Positions 39,902 through 48,211 of a stretch of DNA of 64,000 nucleotides are shown one piece after another. Position 1 is the stretch's first letter. The number at the start of each line of letters is the position of its first letter. Position numbers and translations under genes: made by a program. The notes under the pieces are model-generated. The model was not told the origin of the DNA, made no database searches, and saw only the letters and a list, made by a program, of their open reading frames with translations. Location: contig JAHBUL010000011.1 of NCBI GenBank assembly GCA_019638085.1, positions 1 through 64,000 on the forward strand, read 5' to 3'. The stretch is from Flavobacteriales bacterium (GTDB lineage Bacteria > Bacteroidota > Bacteroidia > Flavobacteriales_F > PHOS-HE28).

Positions 39902-40405
39902 ATGGCCGCCGAACGCACCGTGGTATTGGAACACGACCGGATCCAGCGCAAACTGCGCCGGATCGCATTCCGCATTTACGAGGACAACGTCCACGAGACC
40001 AGCTTGGTCCTGGTGGGCGTGGCCCCGCGTGGTGCCAAGTTGGCCGCGCGCCTCAAAGTGCACCTGGAGGAGATCTCCCCCTTGAAGATCGAGCTGCATG
40101 AGCTCGTGCTGGACAAGGATGCTCCGGTAAAGGCCCCGGCCAAACTGGGGAAAGGCGATGTGGACCTCGACGGCCGTGTTGTGATCCTGGTGGACGACGT
40201 GCTGATGAGCGGCCGCACCCTGATGTACGCTGCAGCGCACCTGATCGGTTCACCCCTGAAAAGGCTGACCACCGTAGCACTGGTGGACCGCTTGCACAGG
40301 ACGTTCCCGATCCGTGCCGACATCGTGGGCCTCACGCTGAGCACTACACTGCAAGAGCATATCAGTGTGGAACTGGGTAAGAAGGACACGGTCTACTTGT
40401 CCTGA
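39902..40405 (+). CDS. Phosphoribosyltransferase family protein (PyrR-like)
   Basis: This 167-residue protein has the type I PRTase fold. The PRPP-binding loop VVILVDDVLMSGRTLMYA lies near residues 96-113, with the Asp-Asp pair typical of hypoxanthine/uracil transferases. The rest (LVGVAPRGAKLAARL, LVDRLHRTFPI) resembles PyrR, the uracil phosphoribosyltransferase that regulates pyrimidine genes in some bacteria. The start at 39902 (MAAERTV) is used since the fold begins there. Its 3' end overlaps the convergent aroK gene by 13 bases, an unusual arrangement. Confidence 0.88.
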   Translation: MAAERTVVLEHDRIQRKLRRIAFRIYEDNVHETSLVLVGVAPRGAKLAARLKVHLEEISPLKIELHELVLDKDAPVKAPAKLGKGDVDLDGRVVILVDDVLMSGRTLMYAAAHLIGSPLKRLTTVALVDRLHRTFPIRADIVGLTLSTTLQEHISVELGKKDTVYLS

Positions 40406-40908
40406 AATCCAAGCATTTCCGCCATGAGCGTGGCGGTTTCCCGAGGGGTGCCCCCGCCGGCCACATGCATCGGAGCGCGCCGATAGACCGGTTCCCTCAC
40501 GCGCATGAGCTCGCCGATCCGATCCGTTAAAGCATCACCTTTCAGGCCGAAAAGCAAGGGCCTGTCCCCTCCCGAGCGCCGGGCCCGTTCCACGAGGATA
40601 TCGTGCGGAACATCCAAGTAGACCACGCGGCCCGCATCGAGCATACGATCCATATTGTCCGCAGCCATGGGGGTGCCCCCGCCACAGGCCACCAATACGT
40701 CCTCCGCTTCCAGCAAGTCGGCGAGCACCTCACTTTCCACCTCACGGAACTTGGCCTCTCCATGGAGCTTCATCCAAGGAAGGATGGGGCCGATGCGCTG
40801 CTCGATCACCCGGTCGATATCCACGAACCGGCGGCCCGTTAGTGTGGCCAGTTCGCGTCCCACGATGCTCTTGCCACTGCACATGAAGCCGATGATGAAG
40901 ACGCGCAT
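40393..40908 (-). CDS. aroK: Shikimate kinase
   Basis: This 171-residue kinase phosphorylates shikimate at the 3-hydroxyl with ATP. Walker A GFMCSGKS is at residues 7-14, the substrate-binding Asp in DIDRVIE near 30-32, GGGTP near 80-84, and the lid region with R residues (RSGGDRPLLFG) near 115. Length is family-typical. The start is at 40908 (MRVFIIGFMCSGKS); upstream residues derive from GTAC repeat DNA and are not protein-like. It overlaps the convergent phosphoribosyltransferase gene by 13 bases. Confidence 0.95.
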   Translation of the reverse strand: MRVFIIGFMCSGKSIVGRELATLTGRRFVDIDRVIEQRIGPILPWMKLHGEAKFREVESEVLADLLEAEDVLVACGGGTPMAADNMDRMLDAGRVVYLDVPHDILVERARRSGGDRPLLFGLKGDALTDRIGELMRVREPVYRRAPMHVAGGGTPRETATLMAEMLGFQDK

Positions 40909-40938
40909 GGTGACAAGGTAGGAATGGATCCGCTTTCT

Positions 40939-41009
40939 GGGTACAGGGTACCGGGCATTGAGTACCGGGTACCTGACCCGCCGTACTCGGTACTTGGTAC
41001 TCTGTACCA
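40939..41009. repeat. GTAC-rich intergenic repeat (copy 2)
   Basis: Eight GTAC tetramers in about 70 bases (such as GGGTACCGGG and ACTCGGTACTTGGTACTC) lie just upstream of aroK. Because GTAC is its own complement, the region can fold in many ways. A looser copy is at 30219-30272. Confidence 0.6.
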
Positions 41010-41100
41010 ACTTCGAAACTGCGTCCCATTCCTCATTTCCGATCCGCGCAGATCTTAACGATCTGCGTCATCTGCGTTCCCAATCCCGACCTTCGCCCCG

Positions 41101-41217
41101 ATGAAGATCATGGAGGCCACAGAAGGAACGGCACTTTACCGCTGGATGCCTTTGCCTTGGGGGATCCACGCCGATGAAAAAAGCGGAATGTTCCGCTTGA
41201 AAAGCGAACGAGCATGA
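41101..41217 (+). pseudogene. 5' fragment duplicate of the 41739 gene
   Basis: The 38-codon frame begins MKIMEATEGTALYRWMPLPW, closely matching the start of the protein at 41739-42929 (MKIIEASEGKPLHDWMRVPW). The upstream bases match too: GACCTTCGC ends four bases before both ATG codons. After about 26 residues the similarity ends and the frame runs into TGA at 41215-41217, which overlaps the start of the thioredoxin-like gene (ATGATG). So the start of the gene, with its promoter-like box, seems to have been copied and truncated. It could act as a translated leader for the thioredoxin gene, which is inferred only. Confidence 0.72.
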
Positions 41218-41699
41218 TGCGAGGTGGCACGGTACCAGAACTGCGCGTGGCCCGCTGGGTGGATGGCGAAGGAAACCCCACGGAACCGCAGACCTTCGCC
41301 CAGCGTTCGGGGCTTTTCAAAGTCGTGTTCTGCTTCCAGGCGTGGTGCCAAGGCTGCCACAGCATGGGGTTTCCGACGCTGAAAAAACTGGTGGAGGCTT
41401 TTCGGGGAGATGACCGGGTCTCCTTCCTCGCCATTCAAACGGTCTTCGAAGGCCTTCACGAAAACACCTGGGAAGCCATGCTGAAGAACCAGCAGGAATA
41501 TGGACTGGGAATTCCATTCGGACACGATACGGCTGAGGAAGGCGAGTTTCCCCGCACCATGGTCGACTTTAGCACCGGCGGTACGCCTTGGTTCCTGCTG
41601 ATCGACCAACGGGACCGGCTTCTTTTTGGCAATTTCCATTTGGACACGGACAAGGCCATCGCCTTCATCCGCGGAACTTTGGGAGAACCTGAAGCCTGA
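41214..41699 (+). CDS. Thioredoxin-like protein (TlpA/AhpC fold)
   Basis: This 161-residue protein has a thioredoxin fold with redox pair in AWCQGCHS (C45/C48; the spacing CxxC is normal though QG is uncommon between). GTPWFLLIDQRDRL (near 121-134) includes the cis-Pro loop (TPW). There is no signal peptide, so it is cytoplasmic, unlike most TlpA. It reduces disulfides of unknown partners. Translation appears coupled to the truncated upstream frame (stop/start overlap) and it runs 39 bases before the GNAT-like gene. Confidence 0.85.
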   Translation: MMRGGTVPELRVARWVDGEGNPTEPQTFAQRSGLFKVVFCFQAWCQGCHSMGFPTLKKLVEAFRGDDRVSFLAIQTVFEGLHENTWEAMLKNQQEYGLGIPFGHDTAEEGEFPRTMVDFSTGGTPWFLLIDQRDRLLFGNFHLDTDKAIAFIRGTLGEPEA

Positions 41700-41738
41700 A
41701 CTGCACAAATGCCCGTGCGAACACCGACCTTCGCGCTA

Positions 41739-42929
41739 ATGAAGATCATTGAGGCCAGCGAAGGAAAACCATTGCACGACTGGATGCGCGTGCCGTGGCG
41801 GATCTATGCCAACGACCCGAACTGGGTGCCCCACCTGAAGCAGGATGTGGAGAAGGTCTTCGACCCCGGAAAGAACAAATTGTTACAGGCCCGCAAAGAC
41901 CGGAAGGCCGGGGCGATCAAGCGCTGGGTGCTATATGATGATGCGGGGCAAGCTGCCGGAAGGATCGCCGCCTTCATCGACCCCAAAACGGCCTGGACCG
42001 ATAAGCAACAGCCAACCGGAGGGTGCGGCTTCTTTGAATGTATCGAGGACCAAAGAGCGGCCGATCTGCTCTTCGACACGGCACGGGACTGGCTGAAGGC
42101 CCAAGGGCTTGAAGCGATGGACGGACCGGTGAACCTGGGCGAACGCAACATGTTCTGGGGCCTGCTGATCGAGAATTTCAAGGATCTGCCGATCTACGGC
42201 ACGAACTACAATCCGCCGTACTACGTGGAGCTTTTCGAGGCCTATGGCTTCCAGATCTACTTCAAGCAGCTCTTCTTCAAACGCTCCGCGATCACTCCGG
42301 TGCAGCCCATCTTCCACCGCAAGTACAAGCAGTTCCAGGATGACCCGGACATTTCGGTCCGCGATGTGCGCGGCATGAGCTCCGAACAACTGGCAGAGGA
42401 CTTCCGCACCGTGCTCAATGCCGCTTGGGTGGACCACGAGAACTTCAAGCCCATGCCCAAGGAGGTGGCGCTGAAGACGATCAAGCAGATGAAGCCGGTG
42501 ATGGATCCGCGGATCGTGGTTTTCGTTTACCACAAGGAGAAGCCCATCGCCTTCTTCGTGAACCTGCCGGAGCTGAACGAGATCTTCCGGTTCGTGAACG
42601 GCAACCTCAACTGGCTGGGCAAGCTCAAGTTCCTGTGGCACAAGTGGAAGGGCACATCGAAAACGATGACCGGAATTGTGTTCGGCGTGGTGAAGGAGTG
42701 GCAGGGCAAAGGCGTGGAGGGCGTGATGATCGTCCATACCAGCAAATGGCTGATGGAAACGGGTCGTTATAACGACACGGTGCTGACCTGGATCGGCGAT
42801 TTCAACCCGAAGATGTTGCGGGTCTGCGAAAGCCTCGGGGCCACCAACTACCGCACTTTGGCCACCTATCGCTATCTATTCGACCGGAGCAAACCCTTTG
42901 AGCGGTTGCCGTTGATCGCGAAGAATTGA
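41739..42929 (+). CDS. GNAT-like acyltransferase family protein
   Basis: This 396-residue cytoplasmic protein belongs to an uncharacterised Bacteroidota/actinobacterial family with a GNAT-type fold. The N-terminal part (1-60) has HDWMRVPWRIYANDPNWVP; the middle has MDGPVNLGERNMFWG; the C-terminal half shows GVVKEWQGKGVEGVMI (near 315-330), similar to the acyl-CoA-binding R/QxxGxG/A loop of GNAT enzymes. Many relatives are said to be N-acyl transferases, but substrate is unknown. The ATG at 41739 follows the same CGACCTTCGC box as the truncated copy at 41101; the ATG at 41709 lies upstream of this box and is unlikely. Confidence 0.82.
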   Translation: MKIIEASEGKPLHDWMRVPWRIYANDPNWVPHLKQDVEKVFDPGKNKLLQARKDRKAGAIKRWVLYDDAGQAAGRIAAFIDPKTAWTDKQQPTGGCGFFECIEDQRAADLLFDTARDWLKAQGLEAMDGPVNLGERNMFWGLLIENFKDLPIYGTNYNPPYYVELFEAYGFQIYFKQLFFKRSAITPVQPIFHRKYKQFQDDPDISVRDVRGMSSEQLAEDFRTVLNAAWVDHENFKPMPKEVALKTIKQMKPVMDPRIVVFVYHKEKPIAFFVNLPELNEIFRFVNGNLNWLGKLKFLWHKWKGTSKTMTGIVFGVVKEWQGKGVEGVMIVHTSKWLMETGRYNDTVLTWIGDFNPKMLRVCESLGATNYRTLATYRYLFDRSKPFERLPLIAKN

Positions 42930-43006
42930 ACAATTGCTTGCTGAAGTGGGTTGGATGTTTACCTTCGCGCCCTCAAAACGCAGAACACGGTTGTGCAACG
43001 CATTTT

Positions 43007-43079
43007 GATCCTGTAGCTCAGCTGGTAGAGCAATACACTTTTAATGTATGGGCCCTGGGTTCGAATCCCAGCGGGATCA
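43007..43079 (+). tRNA. tRNA-Lys (anticodon TTT)
   Basis: The 73 bases fold as a full cloverleaf: acceptor GATCCTG/CGGGATC, D-arm with AGCTGGTAGAGC, anticodon stem ATACA/TGTAT around loop CTTTTAA with anticodon TTT at 43040-43042, and T-arm GGGTTCGAATCCC. The discriminator is A; the CCA end is not encoded. One lysine codon family (AAA/AAG) is read. Confidence 0.98.
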
Positions 43080-43080
43080 C

Positions 43081-43108
43081 AAAGACCTCGGCGAAAGCCG
43101 GGGTCTTT
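43081..43108 (+). terminator. Hairpin after tRNA-Lys
   Basis: AAAGACCTCGGC and GCCGGGGTCTTT flank a GAAA loop with one mismatch, directly after the tRNA. A long T-tract is missing. It likely ends the tRNA transcript. Confidence 0.65.
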
Positions 43109-43224
43109 GTCGTTAAAATACGCCGACGGCAAGTGCCGCGAAGCGGAACCATTGAACTTCTTCCTCAACACGTGGAGGGTTCGATCCAAGTGACATTTAT
43201 CACTTTCAGCAGTGGGCATCCACA

Positions 43225-43780: not shown

Positions 43781-46700
43781 ATGATCGATCGCATCATCAC
43801 ATTCAGTGTTCGCAACAAGCTGATCACCGGCTTGCTGCTCCTGGCCTTCATCGGCTGGGGTGCTTGGTCCGTCACCCAGTTGCCCATCGACGCGCTGCCG
43901 GACGTCACCAACAACCAGGTGCTGGTGAACACCATTGCTCCCAACCTCGCCACGCAGGAGGTGGAACAGTTCATCACGTTTCCGCTGGAGCAGGCTTTCA
44001 AGAACCTGCCCGATGTGGTGGAATTGCGCAGCGTATCGCGCAGCGGCCTGTCCGTGATCACGATCGTGTTCAAGGACGAGGTGCCGCTCTACCTCACACG
44101 CCAGCTGGTGGCAGAGCGCATCACGCAGGTGCAGGAGCAGATCCCGCCGGGTTATGGCACACCCGAGATCGCTCCACCCACCACCGGAACCGGCGAGATC
44201 TACCAATACACCCTTGCCGTGGACAGCGCCCACAAAGGCAAATATGACCTCTTGGAACTGCGCACGTTGCAGGACTGGGTGGTGCGCAAACACTTGCTGG
44301 GCGTGCCCGGAGTGATCGACGTGAGCAGCTTCGGGGGCTATTTGAAACAGTATGAGGTGAGCGTGGATGCACGGCGGTTGGCAGGTGCCGGTCTTTCGCT
44401 GATCGACGTCTTCAACGCGTTGGAGAGCAACAACGCCAACACCGGCGGGAGCTACATCGAGAAGGGGCCGAACATGTACTTCATCCGGGGTGAAGGCGTG
44501 ATCAACTCCCTGAAGGACATCGAGGAGGTGGTGATCGATGCGCGTGGTGGCAGTCCGGTGCGGGTGCGGGATGTGGCCGAGGTGCGCTTCGGGCACGCCA
44601 TCCGCTACGGCGCCATGACGCGCAACGGCGAAGGAGAGACGGTGGGTGGCGTGGTGCTCATGCTGAAAGGCGCGAATGCCCTGGCTACCGTCACTGCCGT
44701 GAAGGAACGGGTGAAGGAGGTGGAGCACAGCCTACCTGAAGGCGTGTACATCGATGCCTTCGTGGACCGATCCAAGCTGGTGGACAAGACCATTGGCACG
44801 GTAGAGCACAACTTGCTGATGGGTGCCCTGATCGTGATCGTAGTGCTCGTGTTCCTATTGGGCAACTGGCGCGCTGGCCTCATCGTGGCCAGTGTGATCC
44901 CGCTCGCCTTGCTCTTCGCCATCGGCTGCATGGTGGTGGCCGGGCAAAGCGCCAACCTGATGAGCATGGGCGCATTGGACTTCGGCCTGATCGTGGATGG
45001 CGCGGTGATCGTTACGGAAGGCATGCTCTTCGCACTGCACCAACGCTTCGCAGGGCAGCGGCTGAGTGCGGCCCAACTGGATTCGGAGACCATCCGTGGC
45101 GCGGGGGGTATCATGAAGAGCGCCGTGTTCGGCCAAGTGATCATCCTCATCGTTTATGTTCCCATTTTCGCACTGATCGGCGTGGAGGGGAAGATGTTCC
45201 GTCCCATGGCCTTCACCGTGAGCTTCGCGATCATCGGCGCCCTGATCATGAGCCTTACCTACGTGCCATGGGCGGTATCCATCTTCATGAACAAGGACGT
45301 GCCCAAAGGCGAAAGCTGGAGCGAGCGCATGATCCACCGCTTGCAGAACTGGTATGCGCCGAAGCTGCGTGCCTCCTTACGGCATCGCCGGGCGGTGCTT
45401 GTGGGTGCACTGGCATTGCTGGTGATCGCTCTTTGGACCTTCGATAGGCTGGGCGGCGAATTCATCCCGGAATTGGATGAAGGCGATTTCGCCACCAGCG
45501 TCACCATCCGGCAAGGCAGCAACCTGAGCCAGAGCATCGCGGTAAGCGACCAGTTAGCCCGCATCCTGATGGCGGAATTCCCCGAAGTGAAGGAGGTGGT
45601 GGGCAAGATCGGGAGCAGCGAGATCCCTACCGACCCCATGCCGGTGGAAGCCCAGGATTTGATCATCGTGATGAAGGACCGAAAGGATTGGAAGACGACG
45701 CAGGACAGGGAGCAGATGGCCGAATTGATGAATGAGAAGATGAGCGTGATCCCGGGGATGCACCTCAGCTTCGAGCAACCGATCCAGATGCGCTTCAATG
45801 AACTGATCGCCGGGGTGAAGAGCGACATCGCCGTGAAGATCTACGGGGACGACCTCGATGAGCTTTTCACGACCGCCAATGCAGCTGCGGCGTTGATCGC
45901 CACCGTGCCCGGCGCCACGGACATCAAGGTGGAGCAGGTGACCGGCATGCCGCAGTTGGTGGTGAAATACGACCGCTCGCGCATGGCCCAGTACGGGCTG
46001 AACATCGCCGACCTGAACCGCGTGCTGAACACCGCACTGGCCGGCGGGAACGCAGGCGTGGTCTATGAAGCGGAGCGTCGCTTCGACCTCGTGGTGCGGA
46101 TGGCCGACATGCGGGATGCCGACCCGGAGAAAATGAAGAACCTCCTCATCCCGTTACCCAACGGTTCGCAGATGCCCTTGGGCCAACTCGCTCACATCAG
46201 CTTCCAGAACGGTGCCGCGCAAGTGAGCCGGGAGAACGGTGCACGCAGGATCGTGGTGGAGACCAACGTGCGCGGCCGCGACATTCAGAGCACCGCAAAA
46301 GACATCCAGGCCTTGGTCGAGCACAAGCTCATACTGCCCACTGGTTATTTCGTCGGCTATGGAGGCACCTTCAAGAACTTGCAACAGGCCAGCGCGCGCC
46401 TTCTTCTTACCGTCCCCTTGGCTCTGGCGCTGATCTTCGTGCTTCTCTTCTTCGCGTTCAAGTCCTTCAAAGAGGCACTGATCATCTTCAGCGCAGTGCC
46501 CATGGCAGCTGTGGGTGGCGTGTTCGCCCTGTGGCTGCGCGGCTTGGATTTCAGCATCAGCGCGGGCGTGGGCTTTATTGCGCTCTTCGGCGTGGCGGTG
46601 CTCAATGGCATTGTGCTCATCAGCTATTTCAACCAGCTGAAGAAGGAGGGCGTGGAGGATGTCACCGAGCGCGTGGTTCGCGGAACGTTGGCCCGTTTAC

Positions 46701-48211
46701 GGCCCGTATTGGCCACAGCGGCCGTGGCCTCGCTCGGTTTTCTGCCCATGGCGATAAGCACCAGTCCAGGCAGTGAAGTGCAACGCCCCTTGGCCACGGT
46801 GGTGATCGGCGGGCTCATCACTGCCACCTTGCTCACACTGGCTGTGCTGCCGGTACTTTATCACTTGGTGTTCTTCCGCAAGCGAAAGGAAGATGGTAAG
46901 GGAGGTGCTGGAGGTGCTGGAGGTGATGGAGGTGCTGGAGGTGCTGGAGGTGATGGAGGTGCTGGAGGTGATGGAGGTGATGGAGGTGAGGGAGGCGAAG
47001 GACGCGAAGGAGGTAAGGGAGGGCTTGGAATCGCGACGGCATCCGTGATCGCCTTGCTCTTCCTCGGAAACCCTGCGTACGCACAGGCTCCTCTGCTCTC
47101 GCTGGATAGGGCGGTCACACGGGCGCTGCGCATGCATCCGGCCATTTCCGCGTCGGAATTGGAGGTCCGGCAACAGGAAGCGCTACGAAAAACAGCGTTC
47201 CAACTTCAACCGCTCGGCGCACAACTCAAGGGCGGGCAGATCAACAGTTCCATCCAGGACATCGAACTGCAGGCCACTACCGGCATCCCCTTCCCCACTG
47301 CTATCGCCCAACGCAGCCGCTACCTGCGCGAAAGTGTGCGCTTGGCAGAGGCCGATCGCACGCGGATCCAGGCTGCCGTGAAGGAAAGTGCGGCCAGCGC
47401 ATACATACAGTGGGCCATGGGTGTGGAGCAAGCCCGACTGTTGCAGCGCGCCGATAGCTCCTTTGCCATGCTTGCGTCCGTCGCTGCGCGCAAATTCGAG
47501 GCGGGACAAAGTGGCCGCTTGGAAATGATCAGTGCACGCAGCAGCGCCGACCAAGCTCATGTGCAGTGGCGTAGGGCCGTCGGCGACATCGCCATTCATG
47601 CAGCGGAGCTGGAACAATGGATCGGCCCTTTGGAGGGCGCGGTTCCGGACACATCCTCGCTAGCCGCCACTGCCCTCCTCCCTGCTCCCGACAGCGGTAC
47701 CGATCCGCAGCTCGCCACGGAAGAACAGCGGGCCAAGCTCGCTGAGGAGGAATGGAAAATGGAACGCAGCCAATGGGCACCCAGTATCCAAGGCGGGGCC
47801 TTCTACCAAACGATCGATGGTACAGCACCTTATACGGGCTATCTCATCGGCACCTCCATCCCCTTGCCAGGAAGTGGGCAAGGTGCTCGCACGAAGGCCG
47901 CACGGTTACGTAGTGAGATCGCGCTGCAGCAATTGGATGAACTCCGCCGAAGCCGTACTACTGAATTGGCAAGGACCCGTTCCCGGCTGGAGCAACTGCG
48001 TGAAAGCTTGGCCTATTATGAAGGCTCTGGAACAGCAATGGCAAATGCACTCCGCAATGATGCCGAACGCGCGTACCGCAACGGCGATGCCGGCTATCTG
48101 GAATTCATTCAAGGCATCGAGCAAGCGCGGCTCATAGAAGTCGAGCATCTGCGCATCCGCTACGAACTCGCACTCACCATGATCCACCTCAACGCCCTGA
48201 TGGGGCAGTAA
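43781..48211 (+). CDS. czcA: CzcA-type RND metal pump fused to a TolC-family channel
   Basis: This 1476-residue polypeptide starts with a 12-segment RND pump (about 1-1035). The TM4 motif DFGLIVDG (D400, D406) belongs to the HME1/HME2 class that moves Zn, Co, Cd or Ni rather than monovalent Cu/Ag. Next comes a repeat of 14 GGX triplets (1041-1082) and a signal-peptide-like stretch: REGGKGGLG, hydrophobic 1084-1096, then NPAYA-QA with a type I signal-peptidase site after A1101. Residues 1102-1476 form a TolC/CzcC outer-membrane factor (LLSLDRAVTRALRMHP at the start). Fusions of this kind occur in Bacteroidota. Processing at 1101 is inferred. It is followed by the periplasmic adaptor gene. Confidence 0.93.
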   Translation: MIDRIITFSVRNKLITGLLLLAFIGWGAWSVTQLPIDALPDVTNNQVLVNTIAPNLATQEVEQFITFPLEQAFKNLPDVVELRSVSRSGLSVITIVFKDEVPLYLTRQLVAERITQVQEQIPPGYGTPEIAPPTTGTGEIYQYTLAVDSAHKGKYDLLELRTLQDWVVRKHLLGVPGVIDVSSFGGYLKQYEVSVDARRLAGAGLSLIDVFNALESNNANTGGSYIEKGPNMYFIRGEGVINSLKDIEEVVIDARGGSPVRVRDVAEVRFGHAIRYGAMTRNGEGETVGGVVLMLKGANALATVTAVKERVKEVEHSLPEGVYIDAFVDRSKLVDKTIGTVEHNLLMGALIVIVVLVFLLGNWRAGLIVASVIPLALLFAIGCMVVAGQSANLMSMGALDFGLIVDGAVIVTEGMLFALHQRFAGQRLSAAQLDSETIRGAGGIMKSAVFGQVIILIVYVPIFALIGVEGKMFRPMAFTVSFAIIGALIMSLTYVPWAVSIFMNKDVPKGESWSERMIHRLQNWYAPKLRASLRHRRAVLVGALALLVIALWTFDRLGGEFIPELDEGDFATSVTIRQGSNLSQSIAVSDQLARILMAEFPEVKEVVGKIGSSEIPTDPMPVEAQDLIIVMKDRKDWKTTQDREQMAELMNEKMSVIPGMHLSFEQPIQMRFNELIAGVKSDIAVKIYGDDLDELFTTANAAAALIATVPGATDIKVEQVTGMPQLVVKYDRSRMAQYGLNIADLNRVLNTALAGGNAGVVYEAERRFDLVVRMADMRDADPEKMKNLLIPLPNGSQMPLGQLAHISFQNGAAQVSRENGARRIVVETNVRGRDIQSTAKDIQALVEHKLILPTGYFVGYGGTFKNLQQASARLLLTVPLALALIFVLLFFAFKSFKEALIIFSAVPMAAVGGVFALWLRGLDFSISAGVGFIALFGVAVLNGIVLISYFNQLKKEGVEDVTERVVRGTLARLRPVLATAAVASLGFLPMAISTSPGSEVQRPLATVVIGGLITATLLTLAVLPVLYHLVFFRKRKEDGKGGAGGAGGDGGAGGAGGDGGAGGDGGDGGEGGEGREGGKGGLGIATASVIALLFLGNPAYAQAPLLSLDRAVTRALRMHPAISASELEVRQQEALRKTAFQLQPLGAQLKGGQINSSIQDIELQATTGIPFPTAIAQRSRYLRESVRLAEADRTRIQAAVKESAASAYIQWAMGVEQARLLQRADSSFAMLASVAARKFEAGQSGRLEMISARSSADQAHVQWRRAVGDIAIHAAELEQWIGPLEGAVPDTSSLAATALLPAPDSGTDPQLATEEQRAKLAEEEWKMERSQWAPSIQGGAFYQTIDGTAPYTGYLIGTSIPLPGSGQGARTKAARLRSEIALQQLDELRRSRTTELARTRSRLEQLRESLAYYEGSGTAMANALRNDAERAYRNGDAGYLEFIQGIEQARLIEVEHLRIRYELALTMIHLNALMGQ
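46901..47026 (+). repeat. 9-base minisatellite encoding GGX triplets
   Basis: Fourteen units of GGAGGTGnT-type, the first ten near perfect (GGAGGTGCT or GGAGGTGAT) and the last four diverged. Each unit is three codons, so copy-number change keeps the frame. It encodes the linker of the CzcA-channel fusion. Confidence 0.95.

Follow-up and report, generated by a model that had tools for sequence, protein, structure and literature searches.

A small thioredoxin-like gene in the window (the 64,000-nt stretch analysed here, positions 1 to 64,000 of contig JAHBUL010000011.1 from a Flavobacteriales bacterium) was probably inserted into the spacer between aroK and a conserved 396-aa gene in the ancestor that this species (G000) shares with its sister (G024), in an event that also duplicated part of the start of the 396-aa gene and may have let the newcomer capture a host promoter. 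Both genomes carry a truncated copy of that start directly before the thioredoxin-like gene, and two different reading-frame connections join the copied ATG to it: an overlap of stop and start codons in G000 and an in-frame fusion in G024.

Duplication of a gene start

The locus comprises the following features:
40396..40908, minus strand: aroK (shikimate kinase; Pfam SKI, 6.2e-33), divergent neighbour, ancestrally beside the 396-aa gene
40934..41086, no strand assigned: spacer of dispersed repeats, GGTACC-rich at 40934-41015 and CAGATC/GATCTGCG at 41026-41086
41088..41096, plus strand: copied -7-type box GACCTTCGC, found by direct reading; by F. johnsoniae numbering, predicted start at 41100 with a 1-nt leader
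41101..41217, plus strand: partial copy of the 396-aa gene limited to its first codons, a 38-aa ORF whose TGA overlaps the next ATG
41181..41198, no strand assigned: perfect short palindrome AAGCGGAATGTTCCGCTT in the fragment tail, terminator-like on the minus strand only
41214..41699, plus strand: thioredoxin-like gene (TlpA/redoxin type, WCQGC; thioredoxin-fold model), 161 aa, a lineage-specific acquisition found in 2 of 45 genus genomes
41726..41734, plus strand: -7-type box GACCTTCGC of the intact gene, predicted transcription start 41738
41739..42929, plus strand: the conserved 396-aa gene from which the fragment was copied, itself intact and weakly acetyltransferase-like, found in 41 of 45 genus genomes

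A repeat search and direct reading agree on a direct repeat that pairs 41086-41177 with 41724-41815 (75% identity over 92 nt, spacing 638) and contains the -7-type box, the ATG, and the opening 26-28 codons or more of the 396-aa gene. The preliminary description had pointed to closely matching starts at 41101 and 41739, each with the box four bases upstream, and to a fragment stop that overlaps the start of the thioredoxin-like gene; both observations are real, as GACCTTCGC precedes each ATG with a four-base gap and the TGA at 41215-41217 overlaps the ATG at 41214 in the string ATGATG. Searched against the whole 3.99-Mb genome, a 128-nt fragment matched only itself and the start of the intact gene (E 3.9e-11), and GACCTTCGCNNNNATG, which combines the box, the four bases, and the ATG, occurs six times in the genome versus once for the reversed control, with two of the six at this locus. 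Since nothing else in the genome matches the fragment and this string is rare relative to its control, we take the repeat to reflect common descent, with the fragment a homologue of the start of the intact host gene. Homology is clear for codons 1 to ~28 and marginal for codons 29-38, which match in register at 13/30 nt (shuffle p ~0.04); with the tail match this marginal, the proposal that the G000 reading frame is the ancestral one was withdrawn. Terminator-like sites are not enriched (3 found versus 2.9 expected), and RNA folding across the fragment and junction is not unusual (z -0.55).

The mechanically called ORF of the 396-aa gene starts at ATG 41709, and relatives place the start at 41739. 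The protein matches no family in Pfam or NCBIfam, and with a profile of 14 sequences the PDB yielded acetyltransferases only as weak matches (E 0.07-0.08), which makes this label tentative. Within this gene, positions 41865-42274 are nearly identical between G000 and G024, with 2 differences in 410 nt; third-position identity reaches 0.99 over codons 43-178, compared with 0.71 and 0.68 in the flanks and with 0.54-0.60 versus five other relatives. This tract may reflect recent recombination between the species or an assembly chimera.

The thioredoxin-like gene is a newcomer

The protein encoded at 41214..41699 has a confident thioredoxin-fold model (mean pLDDT 91) and carries a C45-x-G47-C48 motif that is invariant in 8 sequences, placing it among the CxxC proteins of the Thioredoxin-like/TlpA redoxin type. 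Its closest solved relatives, by profile and by fold, are 3eyt and 3lor, the former being the top PDB match (E 1.3e-12, TM 0.83-0.85); Pfam matches fall below cut-offs only. Relatives are distributed patchily: a class-level search found one in 5 of 395 genomes (E <= 1e-15, own genome included), a scan of public genomes found a single relative, 55% identical, in a Saprospiraceae metagenome-assembled genome (MAG), and 202 of 72,556 plasmid records encode one, all at <60% identity. To judge from their sequences and surroundings, the relatives fit a mobile redox-stress gene family or cluster. One plasmid copy has a UPF0061 gene on one side and an OsmC gene on the other, with msrA nearby. By reading of translations, the relative in L037 continues as an open frame into an MsrB-like domain, and the Saprospiraceae MAG has a UPF0061-like ORF near its copy. 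Taken together, the relatives in L037 and L056 show the run into an MsrB-like domain and the proximity to msrA, UPF0061, and OsmC genes on plasmids.

The comparison set comprised 45 genomes of one genus, and an order-level search returned the same 45 as the family search. The 396-aa gene is present in 41 of them (E <= 1e-30), the other four (G007, G011, G035, and G036) being 72-82% complete, and the thioredoxin-like gene is confined to G000 and G024 (E <= 1e-5). Two full-length copies of the 396-aa gene were found in none of the 45; each genome that has the gene gives one match, except G042, in which two complementary halves lie on separate contigs.

Thirty loci, from 30 of the 41 genomes that have the 396-aa gene, were compared. 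In 25 of these, aroK adjoins the 396-aa gene across a spacer of ~40-180 nt, and the fragment, which lies next to aroK in G000 and G024, thus occupies the ancestral aroK-adjacent position; in these two genomes the fragment and the thioredoxin-like gene fill intervals of ~830 and 771 nt, respectively. The gene behind the copied start is therefore new at this site. When the regions upstream of the 396-aa gene (33 loci, 30 genomes) were searched at word size 7 for a duplicated start, the fragments of G000 (76% over 86 nt) and G024 (70% over 76 nt) were recovered, as well as a 19-nt match in G033 that we take as chance-level. In G033, G018, and G023, aroK was absent from the stretch first compared around the 396-aa gene, and longer stretches revealed none near it in G018 and G023 either; in G033 the two genes are separated by a 3.4-kb spacer (L044 7228-10605) whose ORFs are unrelated, which shows that other genes have entered this interval as well. 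Read by translation, the G033 ORFs are transporter-like and gamma-glutamyltransferase-like.

Upstream, the locus is flanked by pyrR and the divergent aroK. The dispersed repeats between aroK and the copied box have matches in their own genome (E <= 1, query included), 30 for the GGTACC-rich part and 10 for the CAGATC/GATCTGCG part, and the latter is mostly missing in G024. The aroK of G024 is closer to that of G020 (80% aa) than to that of its sister G000 (71%), although G000 and G024 group together for pyrR, yaaA, the 396-aa gene, and cusA, the last of these compared with G033 alone and along most of its length; a replacement of aroK in G024 is possible. Farther downstream, a 1476-aa ORF (43781-48211) runs, by reading of its translation, from a CusA/CzcA-like efflux pump through a GGxGG-rich linker into a TolC-like outer-membrane-factor part and has homologues of similar length in G024 and G033.

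Two connections to the copied start

The sister species has the same gene order. Its copied ATG lies 111 nt from the thioredoxin ATG versus 113 nt in G000, a difference that places the fragment in frame with the thioredoxin-like gene and creates a 198-aa fusion ORF that begins at the copied ATG; we considered and rejected a reading of this difference as a frameshift in a non-conserved ORF, since the altered frame joins that of thioredoxin. The fragment and the intact gene share the box GACCTTCGC in G000 and have GACCTTAGC and GAACTTCGC, respectively, in G024, where the fragment box is altered to TTAG at the consensus TTTG. On an 84-nt tree the two fragments cluster (bootstrap 95), consistent with a single event before the species split; their place among intact starts is poorly supported (17-41), and the G024 fragment is slightly nearer to the G020 start (55/84) than to that of its own gene (51/84).

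With a dS of 0.82, the thioredoxin-like gene has diverged at synonymous sites about as much as pyrR (0.84) and cusA (0.87), and its gain therefore most likely predates the G000/G024 split. By the Nei-Gojobori method, with G000 compared to G024, its dN/dS is 0.12, which indicates that the gene is maintained under purifying selection. The corresponding estimate for the fragment, a rough one because it rests on codons 1-28 only, is 0.64 (dN 0.40, dS 0.63), suggesting that its amino acids are barely constrained; the same 28 codons of the intact gene give 0.11. In a neutral simulation both frames stayed open in 20% to 14% of runs at branch lengths of 0.2-0.3, and with a neutral probability of ~0.14-0.20 the stop-free frame in both species is not evidence of selection.

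Promoter and translation signals

Bacteroidota primary-sigma promoters consist of a -33 TTTG and a -7 TAnnTTTG element. GACCTTCG differs from the latter at two of six fixed positions, and yet a box of this type is kept at 26/30 orthologous starts; given that a -7-type box is found 12-20 nt upstream of the aligned start of the 396-aa gene in these 26 loci, we regard it as a conserved element of the source gene. The -7 element of F. johnsoniae spans T-12 to G-5, according to PMC6847099; counted in this way, the predicted transcription starts are 41100 and 41738, each a single base ahead of its ATG. Weighing against such a reading, leaderless mRNAs are a minority in the flavobacteria studied: the same source gives 87% of predicted leaders as longer than 10 nt, and PMC9723704 puts leaderless mRNAs at 5.5% in F. 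psychrophilum. Nor do other genes of the window show an excess of the leaderless box spacing, which 3 of 54 long ORFs have, with 0-4 in shifted controls; a looser count gave 16 versus 8 in a reversed control.

The recognisable repeat begins at the -7 box, and the 36 nt upstream of its two copies have nothing recognisably in common; a -33 element at the copied start would thus need another source. Stop and start codons overlap as translational coupling would require in G000, and the two frames are fused instead in G024. Overlap coupling is described in PMC6728339 as common in prokaryotes, with Bacteroidetes not relying on Shine-Dalgarno sequences for it.

Discussion

We posit that, in the common ancestor of G000 and G024, a small thioredoxin-like gene from a horizontally mobile family settled between aroK and the 396-aa gene, and that a partial duplication placed a host -7 box, an ATG, and ~28-38 codons directly before it, while the full 396-aa gene would have retained its own box downstream. 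In G000, RNA polymerase would start at ~41100, one base before ATG 41101, and ribosomes would translate the 38-codon remnant, terminate at the TGA ending at 41217, and start again at ATG 41214/41217, which overlaps it; in G024, the same start would read directly into the thioredoxin-like gene to yield the 198-aa fusion. One conceivable route is a tandem duplication by which the host start came to lie in front of an acquired gene that had been silent, the extra copy being lost afterwards; an insertion with flanking duplication through single-crossover or illegitimate recombination would serve equally well. More tentatively, the two sisters might keep one captured start wired in two ways, as a leaderless 38-codon remnant with an overlap in one and as an in-frame chimeric thioredoxin in the other.

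The preliminary description had proposed that a promoter and start were copied by partial gene duplication and now drive another gene. The arrangement itself stands, with a copied box and start and another gene directly behind them, and capture by the copied box is plausible; weaker is the claim that the promoter as a whole was copied, since its upstream half is not recognisably duplicated and the G024 box is altered, and the comparison of first codons suggested at the time, 0.64 for the fragment versus 0.11 for the intact gene, lends little support to capture. The history also reads differently: the newcomer is the thioredoxin-like gene, and the fragment rather than the intact gene adjoins aroK, so insertion combined with duplication is the better reading. 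A full-length second copy in relatives, which the same description named as evidence for a simple local deletion, appears in none of the 45 genomes.

That finding bears on a scenario in which the 396-aa gene once had a complete tandem copy, the body of which was lost by deletion or gave way to the thioredoxin-like gene. We hold this improbable: G042 offers only complementary halves on separate contigs, and the 25 nt that separate the thioredoxin stop from the second box show, on reading by eye, no recognisable trace of the 3' end of the 396-aa gene, even if a deletion would leave the same remnant and the ancestral copy could have been transient. More serious, though in our view still rather unlikely, is that the fragment is inert, a footprint of insertion or duplication, and that the thioredoxin-like gene is transcribed from elsewhere, by a promoter of its own or within the repeat-rich spacer, and initiates at its own ATG. 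This ATG can be native, as homologues begin at about the same position, and the weak constraint on the fragment, the altered G024 box, and the unduplicated upstream half of the promoter all speak for a scar. Yet the fragments of the two species differ by only one indel-bearing change, whereas the adjacent upstream spacer has several large ones; both species retain a path from the copied ATG to thioredoxin, by overlap or fusion; and no sigma-70-type promoter-like site was found in 40380-43120 by a scan that does not cover Bacteroidota promoters. Finally, the 38-codon ORF could be a regulatory leader peptide or uORF for the thioredoxin-like gene, being open and overlapping in G000 and having a short palindrome in its tail; its fusion in G024, where it is not kept as a separate ORF, its barely constrained amino acids, and its unremarkable folding make this very improbable.

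Insertion with partial start duplication, the reading that we prefer, has several known counterparts. In promoter capture by tandem duplication, for which PMC11111574 cites Anderson and Roth 1978 (his genes, Salmonella), Blount et al. 2012 (citT, E. coli), and Li and Bock 2019, and which by the same account can activate horizontally acquired genes, a promoter of the host, together with the first part of a host gene, likewise comes to stand before a previously unlinked or silent gene. The present case differs in that it is fossilised between two species and known from sequence, that, of the promoter, just the -7 half can be recognised in the copy, and that the expected first copy of the acquired gene is absent. 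The chimeric ORF of G024 resembles the deletion-born bacterial fusion genes described in PMC12803068, in which the start of an unrelated gene is joined to a second gene; here, unlike in those fusions, the source gene is intact, and the junction was therefore made by duplication with insertion, not by deletion. The overlap in G000 resembles the ATGA/TGATG termination-reinitiation pairs of PMC6728339, except that the upstream ORF is a decaying gene remnant.

The type of event is thus already known, and this locus adds another case. If the copied box does not drive thioredoxin, the arrangement is an ordinary insertion scar. If it does, the locus would be a natural and comparatively datable case of an acquired gene expressed via a duplicated piece of its neighbour, a mode of activation otherwise known mainly from laboratory evolution, and the frame change in the sister would have turned a coupled pair into a chimeric gene. 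Were the two-way wiring true, the sister species would preserve a natural record of how an acquired gene gained a host promoter and, after that, a host reading frame, within a phylum without Shine-Dalgarno initiation.
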